Source of the DNA: an uncultured Roseburia sp.
GTDB lineage: Bacteria; Bacillota; Clostridia; Lachnospirales; Lachnospiraceae
Length of the DNA: 40,679 nucleotides
Direction of reading: 5' to 3'
Assembly (NCBI GenBank): GCA_947383215.1
Contig: CANDCP010000028.1
Span: 1-40,679, forward strand
Both the position numbers and the translations under genes were made by a program. Within the stretch, counting starts at the first letter, position 1. Each line of letters opens with the position of its first letter. Positions 8,760 through 40,679 of this stretch are shown piece after piece. Under the pieces are notes generated by a model. That model was not told where the DNA came from. It saw only the letters and a list, made by a program, of their open reading frames with translations, and did not search any database.

Positions 8760-9218
8760 TTATGACATTCCGTTTACCGTCTTGTATTTATAGATCATTT
8801 CCGCATGGTTCTGCTCTTCAATCTGGATATCCGCGAGAAGCTTGCGCACATCCGGCTCCGAAAATACAAACACATTCGAATTGTATTCGGAAGAAACCAT
8901 TTTTTCGGTTCCGATGCAGTCCGTCGCGAGGAAACAATCCGACTTTTTGTCCGCCGTTTCGCTCATCGTATCGTACGTCGCCGTCGGCTGGTATTCCTTT
9001 CCGTCCTTATCGTTGCAGTTGCAGGAAGGCACCGTACCGGAAAGAACCTGTCCCAGCGAATCATAGTGCTCCTGCTCCTTTTTCTCCAGAGTCTGAAATA
9101 AATCCTTCAATACCGGATCCTTCGCTTCCTGTCCGTACTTTTGATACTTTTGAATACAGGTCTTCTCCTGTGTCTGCAAATCCTGAATTGCCGTCGCTTC
9201 TTTTTCCGTTAAAATCAT
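8760..9218 (-). CDS. Spore-coat-like protein with ferritin-like fold (CotF type)
   Basis: A protein of about 150 residues resembling clostridial proteins annotated as spore coat protein (CotF/ferritin-like). It opens with MILTEKEATAIQDLQTQEK, followed by CIQKYQKYGQEAKDP and a helical EQEHYDSL segment. The centre contains a Cys/Asn-rich linker (SCNCND), and a final helix has EEQNHAEMIYKY. The helical pairs with E and H residues suggest a ferritin-like bundle, but a complete diiron site is not certain. I chose ATG 9218 because AGAGGG lies nine bases before it; the in-frame ATG at 9227 directly abuts that site. A longer frame to 9329 has no site. It probably belongs to the spore coat or its assembly. 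Confidence 0.75.
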   Translation of the reverse strand: MILTEKEATAIQDLQTQEKTCIQKYQKYGQEAKDPVLKDLFQTLEKKEQEHYDSLGQVLSGTVPSCNCNDKDGKEYQPTATYDTMSETADKKSDCFLATDCIGTEKMVSSEYNSNVFVFSEPDVRKLLADIQIEEQNHAEMIYKYKTVNGMS

Positions 9219-9345
9219 GACATTCATCCCTCTTTCTTTCTGATTTCCGGATGGGCCGCACACAACCGTTTTAAAAAGCCGTCCGCTTCTATTTCCCATC
9301 TTCTCTCTTAGTATGGGGATAATTGCCAATTTTTATGTGAGCTTT

Positions 9346-9933
9346 TTAAATTAACTCTCTGATTGTTTCAAAATCCTCACAAAAAACATGGCCCTGCATT
9401 CCCGCCGCCCTTGCCCCCTCCACGTTTTCTTCCCGGTCGTCAATAAAAAAGCATTCCTCTGCCTTCAACTCATACTTCCTCAAAAAATAACGATAAATTT
9501 CAATATCCGGCTTTATCAGACGAATATCCGACGAGACGACAATCCCGTCAAAATAGTTAAGCGGGGCAAACTGCGGAAAATACTGATAAAAGGCGTCGCT
9601 GGCATTTGAGAGCACGTAAATGCGGTAGCCCTTTTCTTTTACATAGGCGCAAAACCTCTGCGCCTCGGGCTTTACCGCCATGTACACCGGCCAGCCGTCC
9701 ACGCATTTGCGCAGCGCCTTGTGCAGACGCGGCGGAACGCGCTTGCTGACGCCCTCAAAACGGTCCGTATCCGCAATATAACCAAGATCCCCCTGTATCC
9801 ACTCCGGCCCCTCAAAAAGTTCCCTCCGAATCAAAGCTTTATCCTCCGGCGTCTCCAAAAACGCGTCTAACGCCCGGTCGGGATTATATTCCATCAAAAC
9901 ATTTCCCATGTCAAATACGATATTTTTAATCAT
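9346..9933 (-). CDS. HAD-superfamily phosphatase, YihX-like
   Basis: Haloacid-dehalogenase hydrolase of subfamily IA. Motif I is VFDMGNVL with Asp8 as nucleophile. The second position is Gly, as in YihX (alpha-glucose-1-phosphate phosphatase). Motif II is YVLSNAS, motif III is the Lys of IKPDIEIY, and motif IV is FFIDDREENVEGA. A helical cap lies between residues 18 and 85. The start ATG 9933 has GGAG seven bases upstream; the upstream ATG of the frame does not. Length (195 residues) matches YihX. It ends about 130 bases from the coat-like gene. A sugar-phosphate substrate is likely by family but not shown. Confidence 0.88.
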   Translation of the reverse strand: MIKNIVFDMGNVLMEYNPDRALDAFLETPEDKALIRRELFEGPEWIQGDLGYIADTDRFEGVSKRVPPRLHKALRKCVDGWPVYMAVKPEAQRFCAYVKEKGYRIYVLSNASDAFYQYFPQFAPLNYFDGIVVSSDIRLIKPDIEIYRYFLRKYELKAEECFFIDDREENVEGARAAGMQGHVFCEDFETIRELI

Positions 9934-10044
9934 CTCTTTGCTCCGTTTCATTGTGATAGCCGGGCGGCGCCGCCAGGCTAATCAAAATTATATCATTCCG
10001 TAAAAAAGGATACAAGAATGCCCGGCTAAAATTTTTCATAACGC

Positions 10045-10073
10045 TTGTTACGGTTAAAATTTTGTGATAAACT
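10045..10073 (+). promoter_or_regulatory. Candidate sigma-A promoter of the giant flagellin gene
   Basis: TTGTTA, a 17-base spacer and TAAACT lie 48 bases before the flagellin ATG. The match is four of six at each box. Flagellin genes often use sigma-28, but I could not find a convincing TAAA-N15-GCCGATAA match here. Confidence 0.4.
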
Positions 10074-10120
10074 GATTAATAACTAATTTACCGTATTTTT
10101 ACAGGAAAAGGGGACTGTCT

Positions 10121-11614
10121 ATGAACATCAGTATTGTACATAATATGCAGATGATGGCGGAATCCCGGCATCTTAAAACGAATAGCAGGGCCGAAGAAAA
10201 GGCCACAGAAAGACTCGCCTCCGGCTACCGCATTAACCGCGCGGCCGACGATGCGGCGGGGCTTAGTATTTCGGAAAAGATGCGGCTGCAGATTCGTGCC
10301 CTGAAACAGGGAACAAACAACGCGATGGACGGCGTTTCATGGGTACAGATCGGAGACGCCGCCTTAGAAGACGTACACAGTATTCTGCACCGCATGAATG
10401 AGCTTGCGATCGCGTCCGTAAACGATACCAACACCCACGCGGACCGCGCGGCCATGCAGGATGAATTTGAACAGCTTCAGCAGGAAATCGATCATATCAC
10501 AGACAATGCGAATTTTAATACAAAACATATCTTTGACGACCACGAAGCGACGTATTACCAGTTTGAGGGCAACGTAAAGTGGGATTACAGGCAGGCGCAC
10601 AAAATTACGGACGACAATAATGATCTTTTGATCAAATACCGCGAGAAAAAAGACGGACCTGCAAAGGAGATCCAGATCAAAGTAAACAACGGCGTATACA
10701 CCACACAGGAGCTGATCGATGAGATCGACGACGCGATGTTCGCATCCGGATTAAAGAAGGACGGAATTTATCTGGAATACACGTCGGAGGGCTTCTGCAA
10801 TGTCAACTATGAGGGCGGAGAGACCATCGACGCAGTCACGGGCGGGCTTTCTTATCTTCTGTACAATATGCACGGTGGCGGCAGTCTCGGCGCTTTGATC
10901 GGAACGACCGTATTTTCTACGGAAGACACGCCGCTTGATATTACAAACCAGAACAACAAAATGACGTTTACGATAGAAAAAACGGACGGCTCCTCGCGGG
11001 AGGTCAACATTACGTTAAATCCCGGCCAATCCTATTCCAAAACGGAACTGATGAATGAGCTTAACAAACAGCTTGAGGCGCAGCTGAAGGACGAGGGAAT
11101 TACGGTCGAGGCGACCAATTACGGCAAAAGCATACGTCTTGCCAGCCAGGACTGTATTATTTCCGGACTTAAGGGGAATATGTTTAAGATCGACGAAGGA
11201 AAAGACGTCTATACCTCCGTCTTCTACGACAATATTAAATACGGAACCGTAAAAAGCCAGGCCGCCAGCCTTACCGGCGGCGCGGTTTTGGCAATGCGCA
11301 ACAGCTCCTCCACACAGGGGATCGATCCGAAATACAGCGTCTTCCGTTTTGATTCCAGCAACGACACTCTTGTTTTTTCGCCCAACGGAAGTAAGGACCC
11401 GAAAGAACTGAAATTCGACCACAACAGGACTTACAGCCTTTACGACGTCCAGAGCACGCTCGCGAAATTTTTTGCGGATAATAACATGGCTCTGTCGGTC
11501 TCCGCGACTCCGCAGACGTCCGTCTACGTGGGCGGAAGCAACGGCTATGTCTATTTCAGCGGTTTAAAAATTACATCCTTAAGAATCCGGAATCGAAAGC
11601 GACGTGGGAATTGA
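10121..11614 (+). CDS. Giant flagellin, N-terminal part, ends at a frameshift
   Basis: The first 140 residues are a typical flagellin N-terminal D0/D1 region: an amphipathic start, RLASGYRINRAADDAAGLSI, ISEKMRLQIRALKQG, and a HRMNELAIASVN segment. The Arg-x-x-Glu-Leu pattern that TLR5 contacts in other flagellins is kept. Three repeat units follow (about 10660-10750, 10950-11150 and 11360-11565) of the form N-D-x-hydrophobic strands, then Y-x-x-x-E-L, then a helix ending L-N-x-Q-L. The frame then leaves the protein's sense (ITSLRI, then RNRKRRGN) and stops at 11612-11614. The rest of the protein continues in the next frame. The start has AGGAAAAGGGG about eight bases upstream. Exported and polymerised as flagellar filament if the break is not real. 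Confidence 0.88.
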   Translation: MNISIVHNMQMMAESRHLKTNSRAEEKATERLASGYRINRAADDAAGLSISEKMRLQIRALKQGTNNAMDGVSWVQIGDAALEDVHSILHRMNELAIASVNDTNTHADRAAMQDEFEQLQQEIDHITDNANFNTKHIFDDHEATYYQFEGNVKWDYRQAHKITDDNNDLLIKYREKKDGPAKEIQIKVNNGVYTTQELIDEIDDAMFASGLKKDGIYLEYTSEGFCNVNYEGGETIDAVTGGLSYLLYNMHGGGSLGALIGTTVFSTEDTPLDITNQNNKMTFTIEKTDGSSREVNITLNPGQSYSKTELMNELNKQLEAQLKDEGITVEATNYGKSIRLASQDCIISGLKGNMFKIDEGKDVYTSVFYDNIKYGTVKSQAASLTGGAVLAMRNSSSTQGIDPKYSVFRFDSSNDTLVFSPNGSKDPKELKFDHNRTYSLYDVQSTLAKFFADNNMALSVSATPQTSVYVGGSNGYVYFSGLKITSLRIRNRKRRGN

Positions 11615-14600
11615 CAGGGCAAAAAGCAGCGCGTACGACACGCTGTTTGTCAACCAGAACTACACCAGCTACGGCTATAAAGTAAATCCGACGCGCGATA
11701 CGACGGACGACCGCGACGCGTACGTCTGCGGCACAAAAACCTTTTCCCCCTCCTCGCTTCCGTTAAAAATCGAAGCGGGAAAAAACGATACGTTTCGTTT
11801 GACCGTCACAACGTATTCCTCCGGAAGTTACACGCCAAAAGCGTACGACATCCGGCTAGACGAGGCGGAATATAACACAGTCACCGATATCGTCGACGCC
11901 CTTAACGACAAGCTCAACGGCAACAGCGAGTTAAAGGGAAAAGTGGAGGCAACGGAAAACAACGGCAAAATTCAGCTGAACGGGATCGATAGCTCTGTCT
12001 ACTCGCTGGGAGTGAGCAGAGTGCCGTCAAATACGATCAACCTGAAAGACACGGGATATTACCAGATCTTTATCGGAGAAAACGTAACGATGCAGACCAC
12101 CCTGTCGAACGGCTCCACCACGATGACGACATGTAATACCAAGGTCTTAAAGGACGACGGCACGGTGACGATCGCCGCAGGCGAGACGGATTTTCGCGTG
12201 ACACTGGACAACAAAGAATATAAAGTTACGCTGGACGCAAAGACATATACGCAAGACGAACTAAAGCAAACGATTAACGACCAGCTAAAAGCCGGAAAAT
12301 CGCCGGAAAATGTTGAATTTACCACCACAAGCAATACCGGGCGGGCCTGCAGCTTCGACTTTTACGCACATGGAAATACGAGCTATACAAAAACAGACTC
12401 CTATACCGGCGTGGGCGATTCCGACCCTCATCAGGGAGAAGCCGGCAAATACGATAACAATGTCGCGGCAGAGGTCACGCTTACGAGCATGCGTTCCCTC
12501 CCTACCGTTATCGACGATACGAACGATAAGCTCACAATCAAGATCAACGGCGACAAAAAGGAACTTACGCTCGCCCATACCACGTCGGCGAACGACATTG
12601 TAAAAAATATTCAGTCCGCAATTGACGACGCATACGGCACGAACGGTACCGGCGCGATTGTCTCCCTGAAAAACGGAAAGCTTGTTTTTACGGCAAGGCT
12701 CACCTACACAAGCGGGGCCCAGGTCAACGGCGCCGCCACAAGCATCGATATCGCGGCGACCGGAAGCAGTTTCATGCAGGCGCTTCATCGAGCCGATACA
12801 CAGGGCTCCTTTGGCACGGCTACTTACCCGAACAGTATGTATGTCCAGAATTCGTTTACAATTGAAAAAGGGAAAGAAACCTTTTCACTGGAATACGAGA
12901 GCAACGGCGTAAAGGAGACGCTGACCGTAACCTTAAACGCCGGCGAGACTTATGATCCGGCCAAGCTTCGAAAGGCAATCAACGACCAGCACGGCACAAA
13001 AATCATTGCCGGCGGGAGCGGCTCTAATTTGCAGCTGACGACGGTCGGAGCGGGGAGCGACAAGAAAATCTATTTTAAGAGCGAAAATAACAAGAATAAC
13101 GCTACCGCCGCAATTTTCGGGGCAAAGGAAGCGAAAATAAGCCTTGACAAGGATATTCAGAACAATATAAAAATTACAAGCAGCAACAACCGGTTTGCGA
13201 TTACGATCAACGGGCGCAGACAGAATATCTACTTAGACACTAATACCAGCGGTTATTCGCGGGCGGACTTTATTACCCAGCTGAACACGAAGCTAAGCGG
13301 AAAAGGCGTAACAGCCGTTGCAAACGGAAATTCCATTGACCTTATCGCGGATCCCTATGCCGGAGTAAGCTCCATCGGCATGGAATACGATAAAGCCAGC
13401 GGCAGCGCAATGCCGGCGATTTTCGGACAGGAGGATGTTCCCCATGAGGGTCTGACCGCAGACTTCAACTCGGAAGGTCAGCTGACGCTGACAAGAACCG
13501 CACCGGGCGGGACCGTCCGCGTCTCTTCCACTTACGGAAGCGCGTTCCAGAAGCCGACCCCGCTGTCCTCCCCGGTCTACCCGACGCCCGTAGCGGGACA
13601 CCACTCCACGCAGCACGCGAAGATCGACGGCAATAACCTTGCCGGACCGGTAAAAATCGACGATTGGAATAACCGGCTGAAATTCACACTGTACGAAAAA
13701 AATGCGTCCAATACTTACGATCCGACCTCGATTGACATTACGCTCACCAACGGAACATACAGCTTTGACGGTTTAAGACAGGAGCTTCAGGCAAGGCTGG
13801 ATGAAGTCGCCGGCGGAAAGCTGGAAGCGTTTGTCGACAAAAACGGCGTCGTCATTCAGACAAAGGCCACCGGAACCGCCGCCCATATGGGCACGAGCTA
13901 CTCGAACTTTTCCGGAAGCTTTTATGACAAAGTAATCTGCGGATCGACAGAAATTATGAACAAGCAGAATCCAAACGAGGTTCCCGGCACTTACGGCCAA
14001 GATGCGGCATACGCGGTCGGCAGAAAAGACGTAAAGAACCACCCGGTTCGCATTCAAAAAGGCGTAAACGACAGCCTGCACCTGGATCTGACTGCCGGAT
14101 CTACGGCCTATCCGCTTGATCTGACGCTCGACGCAGGCAGCTACAATTCCGACGCCTTAGTGAAAATGCTGCAAAAGAAGTTAAATGAAGCCCTGGTTGC
14201 CAAAGGTCTCAAAGAGAATACCATCCTGGCAGGCATCGGCGAAAAGCTGTCAGATATTGAAATTATCGGTTCCAACGACGCCAACGCGCTCAGCTTCCGT
14301 CTCAACACAAATGTCAAGCTTCCGACCGACGGCGAGTATGTCATCGACGGTATCAGCGGAACGGCCGCATTTAGCGTTTTCTACTATACGGAAGGCGATA
14401 TATCTATCGCAAGCGTACAGGGAACCGTTCCGATCAGCGGCGGAGTCACGCTCAAGGAAGGGCAGACGGATCTTGCGTTCTCGGTAGACGGCACAGAATA
14501 TACGTTTGACTTTGAGGCGAAGACCTATACATCGACCGAGCTGGTCGATGAGCTCAACGCGCAGCTGAAAACGCAGGATGCGCCGATTGTTGCAAAATTG

Positions 14601-15110
14601 GAAGACGGCGCGCTGAAGCTGGTCCATACAAAATACGGCAACCACAAAATTTCAGACTTCTCCGGCGGTGCAAAGCAGGCGCTGCTTTTCCGCGAAAATT
14701 ACAGAGCGCGTGATCCGGAAAAAATCCATATCCAGTTCAGCAATCTGAGGGAAGATAATTTGGAGATTGACAAACCGTATGTAAATACCTTGTCGTTAGA
14801 AGTAAATTCTCTTGCAGTCACGAAAGCGAAATACGCAGAAAAAGCCATGCTGCATATACAGGTAGCGATTGAAAAGATTTCCGCGATTCGAAGCTATTTT
14901 GGCGCAATGCAAAACAGGCTGGAAAAGGCTGTAATGGGAAATGAAAATAAAACGGAAAATACACAGGCCTCGGAATCCAAAATCCGCGACGCCGAAATGT
15001 TTGACGAGGTTCTGAAAAACAGTACAAACAATATTCTAAAACAGGCGGTTGAATCCATTATGGCACAGTCAAGCTCACAGCAGAAAGATATTGTGAAACT
15101 GCTGTTCTGA
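11583..15110 (+). CDS. Giant flagellin, central repeats and C-terminal part (shifted frame)
   Basis: Open from just after a TAA at 11580-11582 to 15110. The only internal start candidate is a GTG at 11604 without a ribosome binding site. It reads on smoothly if one base (C at 11587/11588) is skipped, giving LRI-GIESDVGIDRAKSSAYD. Eight further repeat units lie at about 11782-11990, 12187-12355, 12523-12695, 12875-13040, 13186-13350, 13668-13865, 14068-14230 and 14467-14630. Each has two or three beta strands, Y-T-x-x-E/D-L, and a helix such as VDELNAQL. They resemble the FlgIN/FliD-type motif. The last 120 residues are the flagellin C-terminal domain: ISAIRSYFGAMQNRLE, SKIRDAEM, ILKQAVESIMAQ, and the hydrophobic end VKLLF. 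The combined protein would be about 1,660 residues. Confidence 0.85.
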   Translation, partial: ESGIESDVGIDRAKSSAYDTLFVNQNYTSYGYKVNPTRDTTDDRDAYVCGTKTFSPSSLPLKIEAGKNDTFRLTVTTYSSGSYTPKAYDIRLDEAEYNTVTDIVDALNDKLNGNSELKGKVEATENNGKIQLNGIDSSVYSLGVSRVPSNTINLKDTGYYQIFIGENVTMQTTLSNGSTTMTTCNTKVLKDDGTVTIAAGETDFRVTLDNKEYKVTLDAKTYTQDELKQTINDQLKAGKSPENVEFTTTSNTGRACSFDFYAHGNTSYTKTDSYTGVGDSDPHQGEAGKYDNNVAAEVTLTSMRSLPTVIDDTNDKLTIKINGDKKELTLAHTTSANDIVKNIQSAIDDAYGTNGTGAIVSLKNGKLVFTARLTYTSGAQVNGAATSIDIAATGSSFMQALHRADTQGSFGTATYPNSMYVQNSFTIEKGKETFSLEYESNGVKETLTVTLNAGETYDPAKLRKAINDQHGTKIIAGGSGSNLQLTTVGAGSDKKIYFKSENNKNNATAAIFGAKEAKISLDKDIQNNIKITSSNNRFAITINGRRQNIYLDTNTSGYSRADFITQLNTKLSGKGVTAVANGNSIDLIADPYAGVSSIGMEYDKASGSAMPAIFGQEDVPHEGLTADFNSEGQLTLTRTAPGGTVRVSSTYGSAFQKPTPLSSPVYPTPVAGHHSTQHAKIDGNNLAGPVKIDDWNNRLKFTLYEKNASNTYDPTSIDITLTNGTYSFDGLRQELQARLDEVAGGKLEAFVDKNGVVIQTKATGTAAHMGTSYSNFSGSFYDKVICGSTEIMNKQNPNEVPGTYGQDAAYAVGRKDVKNHPVRIQKGVNDSLHLDLTAGSTAYPLDLTLDAGSYNSDALVKMLQKKLNEALVAKGLKENTILAGIGEKLSDIEIIGSNDANALSFRLNTNVKLPTDGEYVIDGISGTAAFSVFYYTEGDISIASVQGTVPISGGVTLKEGQTDLAFSVDGTEYTFDFEAKTYTSTELVDELNAQLKTQDAPIVAKLEDGALKLVHTKYGNHKISDFSGGAKQALLFRENYRARDPEKIHIQFSNLREDNLEIDKPYVNTLSLEVNSLAVTKAKYAEKAMLHIQVAIEKISAIRSYFGAMQNRLEKAVMGNENKTENTQASESKIRDAEMFDEVLKNSTNNILKQAVESIMAQSSSQQKDIVKLLF

Positions 15111-15116
15111 CAATTT

Positions 15117-15169
15117 ACGGGCGACGCGTCGACTCTGATCATCAGAGCCGCGCAACGCCCGTACTTTTT
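15117..15169 (+). terminator. Rho-independent terminator after the flagellin gene
   Basis: The outer stem ACGGGCG/CGCCCGT encloses an inner perfect stem CTCTGAT-C-ATCAGAG, followed by ACTTTTT. It starts seven bases after the stop codon. Confidence 0.85.
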
Positions 15170-15172
15170 GCT

Positions 15173-15727
15173 TTAATCCTTCAACTCTTCGGCCAACGCC
15201 AAAAGCAGCATAATATGGTATTCTTCGTCCTTTATAATCCTTGCCAGAACGGCTCTCACGCCGTTGTCGCCGATCGCTCTCATATGTAACTTATATTGAT
15301 TGATCGCCGCCTTTTCACTTTCAATATCCTCCCGGATCATCTCCTGCGCCTTCTTCGGTATCGCAAGATACGAAGGCGTCCACATCTTCTGCCCTCCACG
15401 CGGCTGCCTCGCCACAAAATCAACCTCGCCGCCAAGCAAATATATCATCTCGCCCAGCTTCTGCAGATGCATCATCTCCGCAACCGCAATCCCGAGAATC
15501 GTTTTCGCCATAGAACAGTGTTCGCATGACAGGCGGTTTTCATTGTTGATGTATTGCGTAATCGCCGAAAGCTCCGATACCGCCCCGCAATAATCGACGC
15601 TCAGCAGGTCCGCGTAATTCTTATTTTTCTGCCTCACCTGAATCGGCGGATACGGAAGTTCCGCCATCGCCGGCTTCACGCCTGCAAAACTGCAGTTATT
15701 TACAAAATTTCTCTCCTTATTTTCCAC
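15173..15727 (-). CDS. Ferritin-like / rubrerythrin-fold diiron protein
   Basis: A 184-residue protein with a four-helix ferritin-like pattern. The ligand-bearing segments are ELSAITQY (about 51-58), AEMMHLQKLG (about 83-92), ESEKAAINQY (about 136-145) and KDEEYHIM (about 165-172), i.e. the E, ExxH, E, ExxH arrangement of a diiron site. The N-terminal 40 residues are proline-rich (LPYPPIQVRQ), recalling coat-associated catalase-like proteins. It starts at GTG 15727 with GGAG seven bases upstream; thrS ends 44 bases before. Possible roles are peroxide or iron handling, or a spore-coat component; sequence alone does not decide. Confidence 0.8.
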   Translation of the reverse strand: MENKERNFVNNCSFAGVKPAMAELPYPPIQVRQKNKNYADLLSVDYCGAVSELSAITQYINNENRLSCEHCSMAKTILGIAVAEMMHLQKLGEMIYLLGGEVDFVARQPRGGQKMWTPSYLAIPKKAQEMIREDIESEKAAINQYKLHMRAIGDNGVRAVLARIIKDEEYHIMLLLALAEELKD

Positions 15728-15771
15728 AAAACAGCTCCAAATACTTTTTATTATAGTATATTGAATTTTTT

Positions 15772-17532
15772 TTATCGTGTGCGTATTTCCTGTCTCAGAA
15801 GGCCGGCAAACTGCTCTACCGTCATACTTCCCAGATCCCCGCCGTCACGTTTGCGGACAGATACCGTCTGCGCGTCTATCTCATTTTGTCCGACAATCGC
15901 CATATACGGTACTTTATCAAGCTGCGCCTCTCGAATTTTAAACCCGATTTTCTCAGATCTTTCGTCCGTCTCACAGCGGATTCCCATTCGCGACAATTCA
16001 TCCGCAACCTCTTTCGCATACTCATTAGACCGTTTTGCAAGCGACAAAACCTTCACCTGCACCGGAGCAAGCCACAGTGGAAATTTTCCCGCGTAATGTT
16101 CCAGTAAAATTCCGATGAAACGCTCAATTGATCCAAACAAAACACGGTGAATCATAACCGGACGGCGCGTTTTCCCGTCCTCTCCCGTATACTCCGCTCC
16201 AAAGCGCCGCGGCAGCTGAAAATCAAGCTGAATCGTTCCGCACTGCCACGTCCTTCCGATCGAATCCTGCAAATGAAAATCAAGCTTCGGCCCGTAGAAC
16301 GCCCCGTCGCCTTCATTAATTTTATAGGCCACATGGATTGCATCCATCGCCTCTTGCAGCGCCTTCGTCGCCTGCTCCCACTCTTCATCGCTGCCGATGC
16401 TGTCATCCGGTCTTGTGGAGAGCTCTACATGATAGGAAAAGCCAAATCTCGAATACACCTCGTCGATCAGCCTCGCGACATTCTGTATCTCCGGAATCAT
16501 CTGTTCCTCCGTCATAAAAATGTGCGCGTCGTCCTGCGTAAACGCCCGTACCCGCATCAGACCGTGAAGCTGCCCCGACTTTTCGTATCTGTGACAAATC
16601 CCAAGCTCGCCGAGGCGCATCGGAAGCTCCCTGTAAGATCTTGGCGCGGACTGGTACACTAACATCCCGCCCGGACAGCTCATCGGTTTGATTGCAAAAT
16701 CAACGCCTTCAATCTCTGTCGTATACATATTTTCCCGGTAATGCTCCCAGTGCCCCGACGTCTCCCAGAGCGTTCTCTCAAGCATAATCGGCGTGGAAAT
16801 TTCCATATACCCCTCTCTGCTATGAACTTCTCTCCAGTAATCGATCAGGATATTTTTCAATACCATTCCCTTTGGCAAAAAAATCGGAAATCCCGGCCCC
16901 TGCTTCGCGAGCATAAATATACCCAGCTCTTTTCCAATCTTTCTGTGATCGCGCAGCTTAATCTCCTCCCTCATCTTTAAAAACTGCTCCAACTCGGATG
17001 CTTTTGGAAAGGAAATACCGTAAATCCTTGTGAGCATCCTGTTTTTTTCGTCTCCCCGCCAATAGGCGCCCGCAATTGACAGCAGCTGAAACGCTTTGAT
17101 ATGACACGTATTGGAAATATGCGGGCCTGCGCAAAATTCCGCGTACTCTCCCTGTCGATAAAAGGAAATCGCCGCGTCCTTCGGCAAGTCGTCGATCAGG
17201 CTTAGCTTATAGCTCTCCTCCCGCTCCCGCATATACCGGACAGCCTCCTCGCGGCTCACTTCATACGCATTCAGCGAAAGGGATTCCTTTACAATCTTTC
17301 TCATTTCCTCTTCTACGGCCTTTCGGTGCTCGTCGCCAAACGGAAAAGAAAATTCGAAATCATAATAAAATCCCTGCTCAATCGCCGGACCAATCGCGCA
17401 TTTCGTGTCGGGATACAGCCGCTTTACCGCCTGCGCCAGAACATGCGCCGTCGTGTGCCAGAACGCCTCTTTTACCCACGCCTCTTCAAAACTCCCCTCA
17501 CGCACTTCGTTGTCTCTGTAAATTACCTTCAT
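15772..17532 (-). CDS. thrS: Threonyl-tRNA synthetase lacking the N-terminal TGS domain
   Basis: Class II aminoacyl-tRNA synthetase that charges tRNA-Thr. The editing domain begins almost at once, with HTTAH at residues 26-30 and Cys in FCAGPH near 134. The catalytic core has STPIMLERTLWETSGHW, AIKPMSCPGGM, RLGELGICHRYEKSG (motif 2) and PVMIHRVLFGSIERF (motif 3), then the anticodon-binding domain from about residue 490 (APVQVKVLSL). Usual ThrRS proteins have about 640 residues with a TGS domain of some 60. This one has 586 and only about 25 residues before the editing domain. AAGGAG precedes the ATG. It is controlled by the T-box leader at 17563-17829. Confidence 0.96.
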   Translation of the reverse strand: MKVIYRDNEVREGSFEEAWVKEAFWHTTAHVLAQAVKRLYPDTKCAIGPAIEQGFYYDFEFSFPFGDEHRKAVEEEMRKIVKESLSLNAYEVSREEAVRYMREREESYKLSLIDDLPKDAAISFYRQGEYAEFCAGPHISNTCHIKAFQLLSIAGAYWRGDEKNRMLTRIYGISFPKASELEQFLKMREEIKLRDHRKIGKELGIFMLAKQGPGFPIFLPKGMVLKNILIDYWREVHSREGYMEISTPIMLERTLWETSGHWEHYRENMYTTEIEGVDFAIKPMSCPGGMLVYQSAPRSYRELPMRLGELGICHRYEKSGQLHGLMRVRAFTQDDAHIFMTEEQMIPEIQNVARLIDEVYSRFGFSYHVELSTRPDDSIGSDEEWEQATKALQEAMDAIHVAYKINEGDGAFYGPKLDFHLQDSIGRTWQCGTIQLDFQLPRRFGAEYTGEDGKTRRPVMIHRVLFGSIERFIGILLEHYAGKFPLWLAPVQVKVLSLAKRSNEYAKEVADELSRMGIRCETDERSEKIGFKIREAQLDKVPYMAIVGQNEIDAQTVSVRKRDGGDLGSMTVEQFAGLLRQEIRTR

Positions 17533-23067: not shown

Positions 23068-25665
23068 TTAATTGTTGCCGTCATATTTTAACTTGTCAAT
23101 ATTCTCCTTTGACAAGTTCGAAAACGTAAGCTCTATCGTCTCGGCCCCGCCGATATACGCATCCCTCCACGCAAAGTATTCGTCCCCGTCGACATACGTC
23201 TCCTGTTCTTCTGTCCTTATACCGTATACAATGCCGTCCCCGTCGACGTCCGCCTCCGCCGGAAACGGACTTCCGTCCAAATCTTCATCAAGAATTGAGC
23301 CGTCCCATTTTGATACATCCGCAACACACACATACTCCTCTTTTTCCCTCTCATATTGATATAAGGAATAGGATACATCTGACTCATCGTCGTCCGGATA
23401 AAAGGACACTTTGACGACTCCGTTATTATAAAAGGTAGTGTAAAACGGTCCGCGAAGCATTTCGACAAGATTCCCCGTCTCCTCTTCATAATCATAAATC
23501 CGGTATCCGTCCCTAGACACCGAAATACTTCCATGCACATCAAAAATAAGCTCGTCTTTCCCGTCGAAATCAATATCATATAAGGTAAATTTCCAATCTC
23601 CCTCGTCCGGAGATATCCCCTGCTCCATCAAACCCTCCAACGCAGATATATACGCCTGTCTCCGGAAACTTTGCTCAATTTCTTCAATCTCCGTACCGGC
23701 TACCGCTTCCACCAGATTTCCGGCTTCCTCAGCCACCTTCTCATATCCGCCGTCGTCAGACTTTGCCAAAATCTGCGCATAACGGATTAACGTATCCCGA
23801 TACCCGTCCTCTCCCCGGTATCCCCACTGCTCCACCCGAAAAAGAACATCCTCTCCCTTCCGCTCTACGTCGCGAAAGACAAACTTATCGTGCGCCTCAC
23901 TTTCCCAGTTTAACGACGCCGTATCAAAAAACGTCCGCTCATTTTGTCCGTTCAAATCCACGCGCACAAGCCGCTCCCCATTTTGTTCACCGGACGCCTT
24001 TGCCGCAAACAGGCTTCCGTCCGCCTCATCCCATAACAGAAACGACAATCCTTCCCCTACCTGCACCTCGTTTAAAAAAGCAAGGTCCATACGGTAAAGC
24101 CCGCTCTTTTCGTTGTCTTCTTCCCCCACTGCCCAATACTTCTGGTAATAGACGTTACCTTTTATAACGCCTGCAAACCCCGGCGCATCCGTCACATACC
24201 GCTCTTTTAACGCGCCGCTCTTTCGGTCGTAAGAATAAAACATACTGTTTGTAAGTCCAAGACTTCCGTCCGTCTCTCCCGCTGCGTATACGAGATAGCT
24301 TTCGTTCGCATAAAAGGAAAAAATCTCCGGTTCCTTTATCGCCTGTCCCATAAGGTCGCTTTCCACATAACCGTTTACTTTCCGGACGCTGTCGATGAAT
24401 AACCCCTCCGCTTCCCTGCGGCTTACATACAGGCGCGCCTCATCCTCCCAGAGCAGTTCAAAATCTCCAGCAAGCAGCAGCGCGGGCTCTTTTTCCCCTT
24501 CCGCACGGCTGTATATTCCGGCCTGAGCCAAGCCTCCCGCATCTTCCACGTAATACCGCCTTTGTTCCCCCGTCACGTTTTCCGGCACTCCCAGCGCCAC
24601 TCCCTGCGGCTCTATCCCGAGCTCCCCAGGATGTACCGTAATCCCAAACGCTGCCACCGCAACCGCAAATGCAGCCGCCGCAGTCAGCAGGACATTCCGC
24701 TTCCGGTAACGCAGCACATTTTTTATCCGCGCTTTCACGGACGGCTCACCAAATGTCACCGGCGTCATCAGATAGCCGCTCTGCGACGCCGCATATTTCA
24801 AAAGACTGCTTGCGTATTCCTTTTTTATCGTTCCCCCGGCCGCCTCAAGCACGGCCTCGTCGCAGGATGCCTCCATATCCCTGCAAAACAACGCCCAGGC
24901 CGCCCATACGAGCGGATTAATCCAGTGCAGCGCCGTCACCGCAAAGACCGCTATTTTGCACAGAGAATCCTTCCTCTTTCTGTGGCAGCTCTCATGCGCG
25001 ATTATATATTTTTTCTCCTCCGGATCAAGTCCCGTCGGAAGATAAATGACCGGCCGGAAGATTCCCCAAAGAAACGGCGCGGCAAGCCCCGTTACTTCCG
25101 CTATTCGATTCCCCTCATCAAAGCTTGCCCATCGCTTCTTAGATATCATCTTCTTTAACCGCACGGTATGAAACACATTAAACAATACAAGCAGCGTCAA
25201 CCCCACAAGCCATACAATCTCCGTCACCTGTCTTACAATGCTTGTGACATCCGCATTCGAAACCGGCAGTTCTGACAGTTCATTTTCTCCGCTGACAAAA
25301 GGCTGACTGTCCACGGCTTTCTTCTCCGGCTGCACGCTCTTTTTCTGACCGCCCGCACTGCCGCCCTCCCCGCCGGTACGCGTATCATCTCCGGTCGCGG
25401 CCTTTGTCTTTAACGGCTGTACAGACGCTTTTGCCCCTTGCGCGCCGACGGTTCGCTCCCCGGTCACGGAAATCTTCGCCACCTGCCTCGGAATCAGACT
25501 GTACTCCCCCTGCGGCGCAAACGGCAGCGCAAGATTTAAAAATACCGCTATCCACAGATAATACGCATACTTTCTCCCGCACTTTAACAGCGGAACCCGC
25601 AAAATAAGCGCCAAAATGATACAATAACTGCCCACAATTCCCATATCCAACACTTTCCCAAACAC
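23068..25665 (-). CDS. BlaR1-like M56 metallopeptidase sensor with non-penicillin-binding sensor region
   Basis: An 865-residue membrane protein paired with the BlaI-type repressor. The N-terminal part has several hydrophobic helices and the M56 zinc motif HESCH at about 223-227 with the downstream glutamate in CDEAVLEAAGG. A further membrane helix lies near residue 330. After it, where BlaR1/MecR1 carry a beta-lactam-binding domain, there is an extracytoplasmic region of about 500 residues. It has propeller-like strands, then a segment with Asp-rich turns (DIDFDGKDEL, DVDGDGI). No SxxK-type penicillin-binding motif was seen. The start is GTG 25665 with GGAGG eight bases upstream; blaI ends four bases before. 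It probably cuts or releases the repressor when its outer domain senses an unknown signal. Confidence 0.88.
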   Translation of the reverse strand: MFGKVLDMGIVGSYCIILALILRVPLLKCGRKYAYYLWIAVFLNLALPFAPQGEYSLIPRQVAKISVTGERTVGAQGAKASVQPLKTKAATGDDTRTGGEGGSAGGQKKSVQPEKKAVDSQPFVSGENELSELPVSNADVTSIVRQVTEIVWLVGLTLLVLFNVFHTVRLKKMISKKRWASFDEGNRIAEVTGLAAPFLWGIFRPVIYLPTGLDPEEKKYIIAHESCHRKRKDSLCKIAVFAVTALHWINPLVWAAWALFCRDMEASCDEAVLEAAGGTIKKEYASSLLKYAASQSGYLMTPVTFGEPSVKARIKNVLRYRKRNVLLTAAAAFAVAVAAFGITVHPGELGIEPQGVALGVPENVTGEQRRYYVEDAGGLAQAGIYSRAEGEKEPALLLAGDFELLWEDEARLYVSRREAEGLFIDSVRKVNGYVESDLMGQAIKEPEIFSFYANESYLVYAAGETDGSLGLTNSMFYSYDRKSGALKERYVTDAPGFAGVIKGNVYYQKYWAVGEEDNEKSGLYRMDLAFLNEVQVGEGLSFLLWDEADGSLFAAKASGEQNGERLVRVDLNGQNERTFFDTASLNWESEAHDKFVFRDVERKGEDVLFRVEQWGYRGEDGYRDTLIRYAQILAKSDDGGYEKVAEEAGNLVEAVAGTEIEEIEQSFRRQAYISALEGLMEQGISPDEGDWKFTLYDIDFDGKDELIFDVHGSISVSRDGYRIYDYEEETGNLVEMLRGPFYTTFYNNGVVKVSFYPDDDESDVSYSLYQYEREKEEYVCVADVSKWDGSILDEDLDGSPFPAEADVDGDGIVYGIRTEEQETYVDGDEYFAWRDAYIGGAETIELTFSNLSKENIDKLKYDGNN

Positions 25666-26114: not shown

Positions 26115-26298
26115 GAAAAAACTGAGATACTTTCCTGCGCGTTTTCTTAACTTAAAAACTCCGTCAAGTAGAATTAAAAATACTGTACAAAAAAATCAAC
26201 TTACTATATCATGATATTATCGACAAAAATTCTTGCGCAGTTTTATACGAACTGAAAAAGACAAACACGTCGTTTTAAAAAATCAAAGGAGAAGATAT

Positions 26299-27894
26299 AT
26301 GACACAAAAAAAAGCAAGAAAAACAAGAACAATGCGATTACCGTCGCTGTTTTTGGCGGCAATTATATTTGCCTCCATACCGGGCATTTCTTCGTATGCA
26401 GGCGCGGCTCGCTCAAATGACGCCGGCAACGCTTCTGCGGCACAGAGCAATCGCTCCCTGCCGGCAAATCCGACGCATCACTGCACAATGGCCGGCCTGG
26501 AAAAAGATACCGCCACATGGAGCTATATCTGCTTTGGAAGCTATCCGCAGTCAGAAGTGACAAACGCCGCCACAATGGCCGCTATCGACAAAGCCATTGC
26601 CGCCGGGAACGGTATAAAGGGCGCCGCCGGCACAGACGTTTTAGTAAAAGGCACGAAATACCGCAGAATATCCACAAATGACTTCGTCTCCGACGCTGCC
26701 GACGACGCATTCCGCTATTTTAAATGGCAACCGATTAAATGGAAGGTGCTCAACAACAATGAAGACGTCTCCCTGTTTGTCATGGCGGAGCGCGCAATCG
26801 ACTGCGCAAAATACTGGGACAACGACCTACCATCCGTTTCAACGATCACATGGGAAAACAGCACAATCAGAAGCTGGCTGAACGACAGCTTTTATCAGAC
26901 TGCCTTTTCCAAAGAAGAACAGAACGCGATTTTAAAGTGGAACGTCATAAATGAAGACTATCCCGATTGCGACGCAGAGGGCGGCAACGACACGACAGAT
27001 AACGTCTACCTCCTCTCTCTCCGCGAAATGACCAATGCGCTCTATGGCTTCTGCGGTAACGACTCAAGCTCCAGAAGCCGCCAGGTACAACCCAGCGCGT
27101 ATGCATATGCAAGAGGCTTATCAAGAATTAATGACCCATCCTTCTACGAAAACTACGACACATGTTCCGGCTGCTGCACATGGTGGCTGCGAACTTCGGG
27201 CTTTCGGGCAGGCGGATATCCAGGCGCCGTAAGCGTCGACGAACAAGGCAGACTCTGGGAAACCGACAATTATTCTTATGAAACCCTCGGCGTGGCGCCT
27301 GTCTTACATATCAATCCGTCGTCCGCCCACTGGTCGCCGACAACGGCAGAAAACGCCAATAAAAAAGAAGTGTTAAATATTCAGATCGACGCCCCTTCCG
27401 GTGAGCTGGCTGTCGGCAAGCCGATCAAGCTCAAGTTAAAATTTACGCCAAAAAACGCGGCAAATAAAAAAGTCAGATGGCGCACAAGCAACCCAAAGTA
27501 TGCCACAATCGATAAAAATAACAGGTTAAAGCTCAAAAAGGCCGGCGCGGGAAAAAGCGTAATCATCACAGCCATAGCGGCCGACGGAAGCGGAAGCTAT
27601 GGAGACTATCTTATCTGCATTATGAAACACGCCGTCAAACGCATTAAGCTGTCGGCTCCGTCAACAACCGTCAAAGCGGGCGACTCCGTCAAAATCAAGG
27701 CTACCGTCAAGGCAACCGGAAAAAAAGCGAATAAAAATTTAAAGTGGACAAGCTCCAACAAAAAATATGCCACGGTAACAGATTCGGGCATGGTAAATAC
27801 AAAAAAAGCCGGGAAAAACAAAAGTGTAACCATCACGGCAAGAGCTACGGACGGAACAAATAAAAAGGCGAAAATAAAACTGACAATCGAATAA
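26299..27894 (+). CDS. Secreted DUF6273 protein with two BIG2-type Ig-like repeats (first paralogue)
   Basis: About 531 residues from ATG 26299 (GGAGAAG upstream). A signal peptide (basic start, LPSLFLAAIIFASIPGISSYA) is followed by a DUF6273 domain. Its marks are CFGSYPQSEVT, FRYFKWQPIKWKVL, WENSTIRSWLNDSFYQTAF, VYLLSLREMTNA and WWLRTSGF near residue 300. Two BIG2/bacterial Ig-like repeats follow (about 355-445 and 450-531), ending TDGTNKKAKIKLTIE. No LPxTG or other anchor is seen, so it is released or held non-covalently. The Lys-rich C-terminus suggests binding to wall polymers. It is followed 49 bases later by a close paralogue, most likely a tandem duplication. Confidence 0.85.
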   Translation: MTQKKARKTRTMRLPSLFLAAIIFASIPGISSYAGAARSNDAGNASAAQSNRSLPANPTHHCTMAGLEKDTATWSYICFGSYPQSEVTNAATMAAIDKAIAAGNGIKGAAGTDVLVKGTKYRRISTNDFVSDAADDAFRYFKWQPIKWKVLNNNEDVSLFVMAERAIDCAKYWDNDLPSVSTITWENSTIRSWLNDSFYQTAFSKEEQNAILKWNVINEDYPDCDAEGGNDTTDNVYLLSLREMTNALYGFCGNDSSSRSRQVQPSAYAYARGLSRINDPSFYENYDTCSGCCTWWLRTSGFRAGGYPGAVSVDEQGRLWETDNYSYETLGVAPVLHINPSSAHWSPTTAENANKKEVLNIQIDAPSGELAVGKPIKLKLKFTPKNAANKKVRWRTSNPKYATIDKNNRLKLKKAGAGKSVIITAIAADGSGSYGDYLICIMKHAVKRIKLSAPSTTVKAGDSVKIKATVKATGKKANKNLKWTSSNKKYATVTDSGMVNTKKAGKNKSVTITARATDGTNKKAKIKLTIE

Positions 27895-27943: not shown

Positions 27944-29548
27944 ATGACACAAAAAAATTCAGGAAAAACAAAGATTACACGGCCGCTGTCGCTGTTTTTG
28001 GCGGTAATTCTGCTGGTTATTGCCCCCGGCATTCCTTCCTATGCAGATACCGCTCTCTCAAATGACACAGACAATCCTTCTGTCACGCCGCAGGAGGACA
28101 GCCTTCCTGCAAATCCGGTTCATCACTGCACTTACAACGGCAACAAAGAAAATACCGCGAACTGGGAAAAGGACGCCGCCACATGGAGCTACATCTACTT
28201 TGGAAGCTATCCGCAGACCGAAGTGACAGACGCCGCTACCATGGCCGCCATCGACAATGCCATAGCCCAAAAACGCGGCGTACGGAAATCGTGTACGGAC
28301 GTATGGGTAAACAACACAAAGTACCGCAGAATTTTAGCAGGCAAATTTGCCGGTTACATCGAAGATACTTACCGCTATTTTAAGTGGCAGCCTATCAAAT
28401 GGAAGGTTCTTGACAACAACGATAACGGCGCTTTGTTTGTCCAGGCAGTCCGCGCGCTCGATTGTATACAGTATTTTGATAATTTGAACTTTCCGGATAC
28501 TACTACCTATTCATGGGAAATCAGCAGCATTCGCAGCTGGCTTAACCGCAGCTTTTATCGAGACGCTTTTTCCAAAGAAGAACAGAACGCCATTTGTGCC
28601 TGGAATGTGATAAATAACGAAAAGAATCCCTATTGCGACACAAACGGCGGCAAAGACACAACGGATAAAGTTTACCTCCTCTCAATTAAGGAAGCAACCA
28701 ATGCGCGTTATGGGTTCTGCGACATCGACGGTTCTTCACTGAGCCGCCAGACACGCCCAAGCGCTTATGCGCACGCAAGGGGCGCATTAAAAGACACAGA
28801 TCCGATGTACGGTTGCTGCACCCTATGGTGGCTGCGCTCCATAGGATGGAACAAAGACGACAATGAAGATACCCCTTCCGCAGCGCTTATCGACCAATAC
28901 GGATCCGTGTACAATGGTTATACTTATGACGGGCAGGGCGTTGCGCCGGCGATTCATATTCAGGCGTCATCCTCTCTCTGGTCGCCTGCCGAGCCGGACA
29001 ACGACGCAAAAACCGAAGTCGCCGGGATTGAAATCGGCGTTCCCTCCTACGAGCTGGCGGCAGGAAAATCCGTCAAGCTGAGCGTAGATATTGAACCGAA
29101 AACCGCCGTAAATAAAAATGTCATATGGGTGACAAGCAACAGCAAATATGCCACCGTAGACAAAAACAACAAACTGACTCTCAAAAAAGCGGGCGCCGGC
29201 AAGTCTGTGGACATCACGGCAATCGCCGCAGACGGCAGCGGAACCACTTCCGGATACGGCTGTGAGATTACCATCATGAAGCACGCCGTCAAACGCATTA
29301 AGCTGTCGGCGTCGTCAAAAACCGTAAAAGCAGGCAAATCCGTCAAAATCAAGGCTACCGTCAAGACAACCGGAAAAAACGCCAATACGACTTTAAAATG
29401 GACGAGCTCCAACAAGAAATATGCTACGGTAACAGACACCGGCAAGGTAAAAGCAAAAAAAGCGGGAAAGAATAAAAGAGTAACCATCACGGCAAGAGCT
29501 ACGGACGGAACAAACAAAAAAGCCAAAATAAAATTAAAGATCAAATAA
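27944..29548 (+). CDS. Secreted DUF6273 protein with two BIG2-type Ig-like repeats (second paralogue)
   Basis: A 534-residue paralogue with the same plan as its neighbour: signal peptide MTQKNSGKTKITRPLSLFLA, DUF6273 domain (YFGSYPQTEVT, FKWQPIKWKVL, IRSWLNRSFYRDAFSKEEQN, WWLRSIGW), and two C-terminal BIG2 repeats ending in TDGTNKKAKIKLKIK. The BIG2 parts and the ribosome-binding leader (GGAGAAG before MTQK) are nearly the same in both genes, while the ligand-facing middle differs more. The second copy has extra residues after the signal peptide (NGNKENTANW). The two are probably cotranscribed. Function on the cell surface is unknown. Confidence 0.85.
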   Translation: MTQKNSGKTKITRPLSLFLAVILLVIAPGIPSYADTALSNDTDNPSVTPQEDSLPANPVHHCTYNGNKENTANWEKDAATWSYIYFGSYPQTEVTDAATMAAIDNAIAQKRGVRKSCTDVWVNNTKYRRILAGKFAGYIEDTYRYFKWQPIKWKVLDNNDNGALFVQAVRALDCIQYFDNLNFPDTTTYSWEISSIRSWLNRSFYRDAFSKEEQNAICAWNVINNEKNPYCDTNGGKDTTDKVYLLSIKEATNARYGFCDIDGSSLSRQTRPSAYAHARGALKDTDPMYGCCTLWWLRSIGWNKDDNEDTPSAALIDQYGSVYNGYTYDGQGVAPAIHIQASSSLWSPAEPDNDAKTEVAGIEIGVPSYELAAGKSVKLSVDIEPKTAVNKNVIWVTSNSKYATVDKNNKLTLKKAGAGKSVDITAIAADGSGTTSGYGCEITIMKHAVKRIKLSASSKTVKAGKSVKIKATVKTTGKNANTTLKWTSSNKKYATVTDTGKVKAKKAGKNKRVTITARATDGTNKKAKIKLKIK

Positions 29549-38471: not shown

Positions 38472-39608
38472 TGTGGTCAAGCATTTTTGTAACACTTATG
38501 GCTAAAAAAATCAGCTTTATGCTACGATGCAGTTCGTGCCTGATAGGGAGTGCGGTATCCATTATAGCTGTGGGGACGGATATGATTATACGTCACATAA
38601 GAAAATTCTTCCACCGCCTGATACAGCACCTCCTCTGTCTGGAAATCGTACAGATTCACGCATTCATTTTTCAATGTATTGAAATACCTTTCCATAGGAT
38701 CATTGTCATATGGACATCCTGCTTTGCTCATACTCTGTGTCACATGGACAGATTCACAGAATTCTACGAATGCCTTTGACGTATACTGGGAGTCCTGGTC
38801 ACTGTGAAGAATCAATTTTCCCTTGATCCGTGGCTGTATTTCCAGCGCTTTTTTCAAAGTTCGGATCGCAAGGCTGCTGGTGATTTGACGGGCCGTCACA
38901 CTTGCAATAACGCTCCGATCAAATAGGTCAACAATGCTGCAATTGTAGCGCACTTCCTCGTTTTTTAAAAACAGATACGTGAAATCTGTACACCACTTAT
39001 GGTTTGCCCGGTCTGCATGAAATTTCTGCTGCAGCTTGTTTTCAAAGATTTTGTACGGTTTTCCGTGCCGGTAACCCGGTTTCTTCGGGCGGACAAGTGA
39101 ATACAGTCTCATTTCCGTATTCATGTATTTATGTACTGTAACCATACTGTAATGACAACCCCTGCGCGCCAGATAGACGGCCATGGTCCGGTATCCCGTC
39201 ACCCCGTTATGTGCATGGTAAATTTCCTTGATCAGCGCTTTTGCCGCTTCTTTTTGGGCATAATAATCCGCCTTTCGGTATTTCCGATAGTTGTAATAAG
39301 CATTCGGGCAGAGACCAGGCCGCCTTAGCAGCTAGCGGACACCGAATTCTCTGTTATGCTGTTCCATAAACCGATAACTTTGGACTTGGCATTCTTTTTG
39401 GAATTCATTACACCACCGACGGACACTTTCTTTGGAGATGCCATACTCTGTGGTGATGCTGTTGGTCGTTCTTCCTTCCTCCAGACGGAGGCGGACAATT
39501 TTCTTTTTAAATTCAGGGGTGTAATTCTGTAGCATAATAAGTACCTCTTTTTTCCATAGTTGAATTATATCTTATTAGCCACTTCCGTTACAACTTTAGT
39601 TTATCACA
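38472..39608 (-). mobile_element. IS3-family insertion sequence, inactive, about 1.14 kb
   Basis: The ends are TGTGGTCAAGC at the left and the complement TGTGATAAACT at the right, with imperfect inverted repeats that share TTGTAAC and TGGCTAA further in. They follow the TG...CA rule of IS3 elements. It carries a damaged transposase. The flanking bases show no clear target duplication. The element is shorter than expected because part of the first gene is missing. A second left end lies at 36322. Confidence 0.85.
38522..39535 (-). pseudogene. IS3-family transposase with internal deletion and in-frame amber stop
   Basis: The first part (39332-39535) is a helix-turn-helix OrfA start (MLQNYTPEFKKKIVRLRLEE, YGISKESVRRWCNEFQKECQ) that passes straight into what is normally the OrfB start (YRFMEQHNREFGVR). 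The leucine-zipper end of OrfA is missing. At 39332-39334 a TAG stands where related transposases have Trp (FGVRWLLRR); after it the same frame continues LLRRPGLCPNAYYNY to the rve integrase core. The core shows WCTDFTYL, HSDQDSQYTS, and ENECVNLYDF-like KNECVNLYDF, i.e. the DDE residues. The frame ends at 38522. Confidence 0.85.
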
Positions 39609-39789: not shown

Positions 39790-40679
39790 TTACTCAATAA
39801 TCGTAGCAACCCTACCAGAACCAACTGTACGACCACCCTCACGGATAGCGAATGTAAGTCCCTGCTCCATAGCGATTGGATGAATCAATTCAATTGTCAT
39901 CTCTACGTTATCTCCAGGCATACACATCTCTGTTCCGTCCGGCAAGTTACATACGCCTGTTACGTCTGTCGTTCTGAAGTAGAACTGCGGACGATAGTTA
40001 TTAAAGAACGGAGTATGACGTCCACCCTCGTCTTTTGTCAATACGTAAACCTGTGCAGTAAACTTTGTATGGCATGTTACTGTACCCGGTTTTGCAAGAA
40101 CCTGTCCTCTTTCAATTTCTGTTCTCTGGATACCACGAAGCAGAGCACCGATATTATCGCCAGCCTGTGCCTCATCCAATAACTTACGGAACATCTCGAT
40201 TCCGGTTACAACCGTCTTCTTCGTCTCCTCTTTGATACCTACGATTTCAACTTCCTCATTTACATGAAGAACTCCACGCTCTACTCTACCGGTAGCAACT
40301 GTTCCACGTCCTGTAATCGTAAAGATATCCTCGATTGGCATCAGGAACGGCTGATCTGTTGCACGCTGCGGATCCGGAATATGGCTGTCTACCGCATCCA
40401 TTAATTCCATGATCTTATCGCCCCACTCTCCTGAAGGATCTTCAAGAGCCTTTAATGCGGAACCTTTGATAATCGGGCAGTCTTCAAAATCATACTCTGC
40501 AAGCTGCTCTGTAATTTCCATCTCTACCAGCTCAAGTAACTCCTCATCGTCTACCATATCGCATTTGTTCATGAATACAACGATGTAAGGAACGCCTACC
40601 TGACGTGACAGTAAGATATGCTCTTTTGTCTGAGCCATAACACCGTCAGTAGCGGCAACAACAAGGATAGCTCCATCCA
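39790..40679 (-). CDS. tuf: Elongation factor Tu, N-terminus beyond window
   Basis: Translation factor that brings aminoacyl-tRNA to the ribosome as a GTP complex. The window holds most of the protein from [20 protein letters not shown] in the G domain onwards. The NKCD nucleotide motif ([14 protein letters not shown]) and GSALKAL are present. Domain II begins at [15 protein letters not shown] and domain III ends in [14 protein letters not shown]. The frame is open to the right edge, so the first 110 or so residues, including the P-loop, lie outside. Codon use is less GC-rich than in the left half, as expected for a highly expressed gene. Confidence 0.98.

Follow-up and report, generated by a model that had tools for sequence, protein, structure and literature searches.

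Two open frames of a probable interrupted giant-flagellin gene with eleven repeat units in an uncultured Roseburia sp.

Analysis of a 40,679-nucleotide stretch of DNA from an uncultured Roseburia sp. (contig CANDCP010000028.1 of assembly GCA_947383215.1, positions 1 to 40,679; hereafter the window) points to an interrupted copy of a giant-flagellin gene at positions 10121-15110. With a probability that we put at roughly 0.6, the gene belongs to an old, sporadically kept giant-flagellin lineage of the Lachnospiraceae and their neighbours, whole members of which would be exported, assembled into filaments and folded into an out-and-back coat of repeated domains. An initial annotation, made from the sequence alone, had described a single flagellin of about 1,660 residues, in which typical flagellin ends enclose about eleven beta-beta-helix units. 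The flagellin ends, the eleven units and, in relatives, whole copies of such a gene were recovered, but the single open frame had to be rejected: the region comprises 4,990 bases, which is no multiple of three, and holds two open reading frames (ORFs) in different frames, joined only across a frame change inside the third unit, r3. The main elements are as follows:

10121..11614, plus strand: first open frame, 497 amino acids (aa), with the Flagellin_N D0/D1 part, units r1 and r2 and most of r3; its stop lies just past the frame change
10133..10543, plus strand: Flagellin_N (PF00669) region, matched here at E 4.7e-39 and free of internal stops
about 11560..11614, plus strand: stretch where the frame changes, inside r3; its flanks adjoin in whole relatives
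11604..15110, plus strand: second open frame, 1,168 aa, with r4-r11 and then the flagellin C-terminal D1/D0 part
14856..15104, plus strand: Flagellin_C (PF00700) region, second-frame residues 1085-1167

Flagellin_N matches the first frame at E 3.2e-38 (profile positions 1-137 of 139; 131.4 bits, cut-off 26.6), and Flagellin_C matches the second at E 2.7e-14 (positions 4-86 of 86; 53.7 bits, cut-off 23); both domains that mark a flagellin are present, in two open frames rather than one. At 497 aa, the frame bearing Flagellin_N falls short of the more than 1,000 residues of a giant flagellin in the sense of the accessible part of Thomson et al. (2018, PMC6248924). The motif HRMNELA, proposed in the initial annotation as the TLR5-facing segment with its Arg, Glu and Leu retained, indeed starts at residue 90 of the first frame with these three residues in place.

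Both pieces were kept separate as search queries. BLAST placed the first on residues 12-481 of a whole relative (L046) and the second on residues 490-1654; alignment to whole relatives runs to about residue 486 of the first piece and starts at residue 1 of the second. The pieces are thus neighbouring parts of a single protein. No stop interrupts the second frame over 1,168 codons, the longest frame in 200 shuffles of the same DNA being 198, and codon-position G+C is 0.50/0.36/0.63 before the frame change and 0.50/0.41/0.61 after it. As no decay is visible in either respect, the interruption is therefore recent or else a sequence error. Foreign composition was rejected, codon-position G+C being near that of the neighbouring genes, as was homopolymer phase variation: the longest run in 11540-11620 is five A, with no long homopolymer at the frame change, and no run above five occurs near the frame changes of the window or of two other interrupted copies (L051 and L054). 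The flagellinolysin metallopeptidase profile (NF033876) reached 26.3 bits against a cut-off of 205, over first-frame residues 113-144 only, and was absent from the matches of the second frame.

Between the flagellin ends, most of the sequence is taken up by eleven units of about 105 aa each; r1-r3 belong to the first frame and r4-r11 to the second. All were recognised by the unit profile and a shuffle test, to which the unit tree was added for r5-r7 and a structural model for r8:

10592..10933, plus strand: unit r1
10928..11272, plus strand: unit r2
11336..11569, plus strand: unit r3, shortened by the frame change
11757..12122, plus strand: unit r4
12159..12473, plus strand: unit r5, its position read as missing in eight-unit relatives
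12498..12836, plus strand: unit r6, its position read as missing in eight-unit relatives
12849..13157, plus strand: unit r7, its position read as missing in eight-unit relatives
13161..13475, plus strand: unit r8, structure predicted alone
13644..13979, plus strand: unit r9
14040..14423, plus strand: unit r10
14439..14729, plus strand: unit r11

In a leave-one-out test, each unit was scored by a profile built without it and compared with 497-500 shuffles. When the profiles were made from the other ten units of the window alone, the real score was reached by none of the 497-500 shuffles for any of the eleven units; the eleven segments, alignment of which with a profile tool had been proposed as a check, are thus related beyond chance. 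With profiles from all other positions of eight proteins, no shuffle reached ten of the eleven units, r3 being reached by 1 of 500. Furthermore, in a tree of 81 units from eight proteins, the outer positions r1 (support 100/97), r2 (100/100), r9 (100/98), r10 (100/98) and r11 (99/95) cluster by position across all eight proteins and not by genome, and r6 is grouped where present. The array is thus old and ordered, and the layout of its ends, at least, predates the separation of these genera or the exchange of the gene between them. Pfam scans of the 11 window units and of eight r9-r11 segments gave scattered weak matches only (DUF5901 at 3.2e-05 in one member), and a PDB sequence search with r9-r11 gave two matches, at 0.2 and 0.38.

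A first genome scan with the second frame as query found no relative, and a second, with the query A2, returned 20 loci. These are titled Lachnospiraceae, Roseburia, Butyrivibrio, Lachnospira, Lachnoclostridium, Anaerocolumna, Eubacterium, Clostridium and others, with one titled Bacillus; they are mostly metagenome-assembled, and a type strain, Anaerocolumna aminovalerica DSM 1283, is among them. We examined 26 copies in all, namely the window, the 20 scan loci, three further loci and a pair from one genome that belongs to a different family within the order. The gene is open end to end in 20 of them, in Lachnospiraceae and other Clostridia. Whole copies measure 1,254-1,814 aa and fall into two forms: a long one of 1,519-1,814 aa, with ten or eleven units, and a short one with eight units (1,254-1,286 aa, counted from the first possible start), the latter being read, less surely, as an array without r5-r7. 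Four copies are interrupted, by a frame change in the window, L051 and L054 and by a stop in L048; another (L052) is cut by the contig start, and one (L068) has no N-terminal part. L048, with its in-frame stop, and L049, which is open, share 99.4% protein identity over the giant flagellin.

The repeat part was matched in nine of 200 genomes of the family, or in eight, the window genome counted, after one genome (G090) was dropped. The match in G090 (E 5.5e-4) was rejected as a giant flagellin; it concerns a 629-aa frame (L040:9509-11398, minus strand) with a weak unit match and no Pfam match, in a neighbourhood that on visual inspection resembles a prophage tail module. An FlhA match was found in all eight family genomes with the giant, as against 111 of the 200 overall (chance ~0.008).

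A tree of flagellin N-termini separates 19 giants, the window's first piece included, from 32 other flagellins with support 100/99, and some of these 32 come from the same genomes as giants. The giant flagellin is a lineage of its own, apart from ordinary flagellins. The flagellin trees do not include the giants of L048, L051, L052, L054, L056, L060 and L068, the flagellins of L014, L017 and L019 (not picked by the selection) or FlgL-like proteins. Ordinary flagellins showed no evident units: a 487-aa frame of the window genome gave E 1.7 and the best congener flagellin 0.083, with shuffles reaching 0.33. A 431-aa frame near one giant flagellin (L033:1678-2973, plus strand) has a weak unit match at E 0.004. 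Large flagellins lie directly upstream of three giants (L057:2351-4510, 719 aa; L059:2408-4477, 689 aa; L058:4012-5730, 572 aa), and no convincing unit of the giant-flagellin repeat family was found in them.

The units have likely kin in another flagellar protein. Outside the giants, the r9-r11 profile gave three weak matches within the order, all three of them FliD; beyond the order, 17 genomes of the class match weakly, and the four inspected comprise three FliD proteins and a 929-aa flagellin. The FliD of one genome (G302) shows five tandem unit stretches of 14.4, 18.9, 18.4, 12.7 and a weak 9.0 bits, and totals 52.4 bits, the score having been strongly corrected for composition, whereas the best of 250 shuffles gave 12.6; the other two order-level FliD proteins reach 18.3 and 18.2 bits, against shuffle maxima of 9.2 and 3.7. 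Profile similarity thus places the units with the outer domains of FliD, the filament cap, which they appear to resemble. The FliD of the window genome itself gave no unit-profile match, and this counts against the kinship. The initial annotation had called the units FlgIN-like. Flagellin_IN (PF07196) itself does not reach the giant gene at E <= 10 in the window genome, matches none of the 11 window units and matches one of seven relatives, at E 0.066. What keeps the name in play is the indirect evidence of the profile match to the outer part of FliD, chiefly because the PF07196 site in the FliD of G302 (residues 444-493) falls inside one of the unit-profile stretches. An 824-aa FliD (L072:524-2998, minus strand) carries four or five tandem giant-flagellin units in mid-protein, a cap with an enlarged outer array.

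Modelled from an alignment of the ten remaining window units, r8 shows four strands, a helix and three strands, with a predicted local distance difference test score (pLDDT) of 81-92 over residues 1-70, a mean of 73.7 and a tail (residues 79-102) below 50. This one unit is predicted to have a beta-helix-beta fold. Foldseek returned nothing at E <= 0.001 for the unit; phage tail and baseplate proteins rank first, and lower matches include FliC D2/D3 (8erm, E 0.16) and FliD D2-D3 (5xlj, E 0.38, template modelling (TM) score 0.44). An AlphaFold model of a whole, natural eight-unit relative, that from A. aminovalerica (L050, residues 40-1220, 16 alignment rows), has a mean pLDDT of 82.4. D1 helices form its two ends, and between them eight main helices follow one another every 110-130 residues, each with strands on both sides. 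This is the pattern that eight unit domains would give, the domain borders being read from the secondary structure. The best PDB match of the model is a 792-residue flagellin (9au6, E 1.2e-15). Two folding schemes for a repeated middle, separate domains or domains shared between distant stretches, are discussed in the accessible part of PMC6248924, and the separate-domain scheme is favoured here because each unit has its own profile and r8 its own compact fold. Over four whole eleven-unit proteins, mean identity from r1 to r11 runs 51, 48, 34, 33, 27, 30, 32, 34, 40, 45 and 33%; this drop toward the middle suggests an out-and-back chain, with inner domains held and outer ones free.

Taken together, a whole copy would be threaded through the flagellar export gate, and by way of its D0/D1 ends it would build the filament, either by itself or together with ordinary flagellins. 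The chain would leave the core via r1-r2, turn around r5-r7 and come back via r9-r11, giving the filament a thick coat, the outermost domains of which would vary most and could be dropped, as in the eight-unit form. The thick filament of giant subunits foreseen in the initial annotation is reasonable for whole copies, but the window genome as assembled can make no full-length subunit, because the reading frame is interrupted, and its two ordinary flagellins would presumably build the filament.

This leads to the question as to what the interruption represents. That it is a real and recent loss of function, a pseudogene forming in a lineage with no need of the giant flagellin, comes close to an even chance. 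The giant gene was not found in any of seven congeners (83-99% complete), where only the conserved C-terminus of other flagellins was matched, and the corresponding site in the nearest of them (G007, on a 3,533-base contig) is empty, as the comparison defines an extra segment in the window:

9933..15808, no strand: extra segment relative to G007; its ends are approximate, where the local alignment stops just inside the neighbouring genes
15173..15727, minus strand: ferritin-like gene, inside the extra segment missing from G007

In G007, 72 bases replace this segment, the HAD-hydrolase and threonyl-tRNA synthetase genes adjoin, and the two flanking proteins are 84 and 85% identical to those of the window; either gain in the window genome or loss in G007 would account for the difference. 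The window genome encodes FlhA, FliD, flagellin ORFs of 353 and 486 aa and a 539-aa Flagellin_N protein, read by its place as FlgL. Upstream regions of 250 bases were scanned for sigma-28-like promoters at 12 positions of the consensus, with starts assigned by eye and 200 shuffles. Sites of 11/12 and 10/12 precede the two ordinary flagellins (1/200 and 3/200 shuffles as good), and the giant gene has no such promoter within 250 bases, its best score of 9/12 being equalled by 52/200 shuffles. A silent gene beside ordinary flagellins that make the filament had been named in advance as fatal to the giant-filament proposal, and, judged by its promoters, this genome appears to come near that state. 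Three further copies are also interrupted, which fits loss as well; on the other side, there is a single interruption, and neither piece shows decay elsewhere.

An assembly or sequencing error, under which the genome would hold a whole, working giant flagellin, has a real chance, if one somewhat under even. The long second frame and the unchanged codon-position G+C agree with it, the genome is a draft in 77 contigs, and the interrupted L048 exists beside the nearly identical, open L049. Yet the place has no long homopolymer, the longest run there being five A, and the inspected FliD, flagellin and FlgL-like genes of the same genome are all open.

Several findings weigh against the wider reading, that of an old lineage of ordered, out-and-back giant flagellins to which the window gene belongs. 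The unit tree sorts r3, r4, r5, r7 and r8 only partly by position, and in it r7 of one relative (L036) pairs with r8 of the same protein, a join that the program flagged as unsafe; because the middle positions are poorly resolved, their order, and the short form as exactly the long one minus r5-r7, are less sure. The identity of r11 (33%) is no higher than that of r3, r4 or r8, which weakens the symmetric out-and-back reading. The predicted template modelling score (pTM) of the L050 model is 0.47 and its superposition on 9au6 is poor (TM 0.18-0.25, root-mean-square deviation (rmsd) 44), so that the spatial arrangement of the domains is inferred rather than established. Six of the 26 copies are interrupted, truncated or cut, and the giant gene may accordingly be dispensable. 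Finally, of 20 giant genes tested, four have a sigma-28-like promoter (scores of 10 or 11) and the other 16, among them that of the window, have none, for which reason many giants may not be made together with the ordinary filament.

The last point also bears on a further explanation, which we consider unlikely: that the whole protein is a minor or secreted flagellin-like protein, for example a surface adhesin exported by the flagellar apparatus, and not a filament builder. By-eye reading of the neighbours of 18 giant loci found another flagellin, or part of one, near five (directly upstream in L057, L058 and L059, some kilobases off in L037 and L069) and none near 13, which would suit such a role along with the 16 of 20 giant genes lacking a sigma-28-like site; moreover, the accessible part of PMC4863622 describes FlaC of the Campylobacterales, a flagellin-like protein that is secreted and has no part in motility. 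Both D0/D1 ends are nevertheless present and kept across genera, and all eight family genomes carrying the giant have FlhA. The locus of L059 also contains genes resembling CheC and CheD by eye, and that of L069 one resembling a chemoreceptor. Programmed ribosomal frameshifting, which would join the two frames and accord with their colinearity with one protein of the relatives, is highly improbable and was rejected because 20 whole relatives read straight through with no shift.

The interrupted member of an old giant-flagellin lineage remains our preferred account. A bolder version is rather doubtful: that Lachnospiraceae keep a second kind of filament or coat, made of a dedicated giant flagellin in which a cap domain was multiplied to eight or eleven copies and laid out and back, with r5-r7 interchangeable, and switched by gain, loss and interruption of the gene instead of by the usual flagellar sigma factor.

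Several other genes of the window were recorded. A second, different ferritin-like gene near the giant flagellin (8760-9329, minus strand) also has a Coat_F domain. Two neighbouring genes (26233-27894 and 27944-29548) both encode DUF6273 followed by a Big_2 domain, and a large BlaR1-like sensor (23068-25665, minus strand) lies under the curated NCBIfam cut-off. Toward the contig end are an integrase core domain (rve) protein (38522-39202, minus strand) and an elongation factor Tu gene (39790-40677, minus strand) that runs off the contig. Elsewhere in our data, G000:C5:4218-5993 is a second threonyl-tRNA synthetase, 46% identical to that of the window.

Giant flagellins, thick filaments and tandem outer domains are already known, a Firmicutes example included, according to the accessible part of PMC6248924, which lists Firmicutes with giant flagellins, among them Eubacterium plexicaudatum; PMC9254593, as far as its accessible part goes, mentions giant flagellins in passing. 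In literature that mostly excluded subscription papers, no report was found of a giant lineage with eight to eleven ordered FliD-like units beside ordinary flagellins, nor was a paper on the flagellar filaments of Geovibrio thiophilus. The present family links the outer domains of a flagellin with those of the cap protein, and it reveals Clostridia that carry a very different flagellin beside their ordinary ones. The accessible part of PMC6248924 poses as an open question the folding of an out-and-back subunit with a tandemly repeated middle; eleven ordered units, a natural eight-unit version and a cultured type strain with a whole copy of 1,259 aa (A. aminovalerica DSM 1283) make that question testable. 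For the window itself the lesson is one of caution, its single giant protein being a join across a frame change.

Among known systems, the outer part of FliD is like the giant unit in that several genomes' FliD proteins match its profile; FliD differs in carrying FliD_N and FliD_C, which were not seen in the scan of the window pieces. The Roseburia hominis flagellin 9hpz (270 aa) is the best solved sequence relative (E 1.3e-105) and has similar D0/D1 ends, but it has no outer array, and other flagellins of the family branch apart from the giants (9hpz being outside the tree). The G. thiophilus flagellin 9au6 (792 aa) is a large flagellin in a solved filament and the best fold match of the L050 model; its best sequence stretch, however, lies in the flagellin ends, and with the superposition given above a shared arrangement is not supported. 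A similar design is shared by two giant flagellins, that of Bermanella marisrubri with 1,020 aa and that of Oleibacter marinus with 1,190 aa, described in the accessible part of Thomson et al. (2018, PMC6248924), in which, as in the present family, flagellin ends surround a middle enlarged by tandem domain duplication, and which form filaments at least 30 nm wide. Those proteins have two tandem DE regions, as against eight to eleven units here, DE region and unit being compared by description only, and each is the only predicted flagellin of its cell, whereas the giant of the window sits beside ordinary flagellins.

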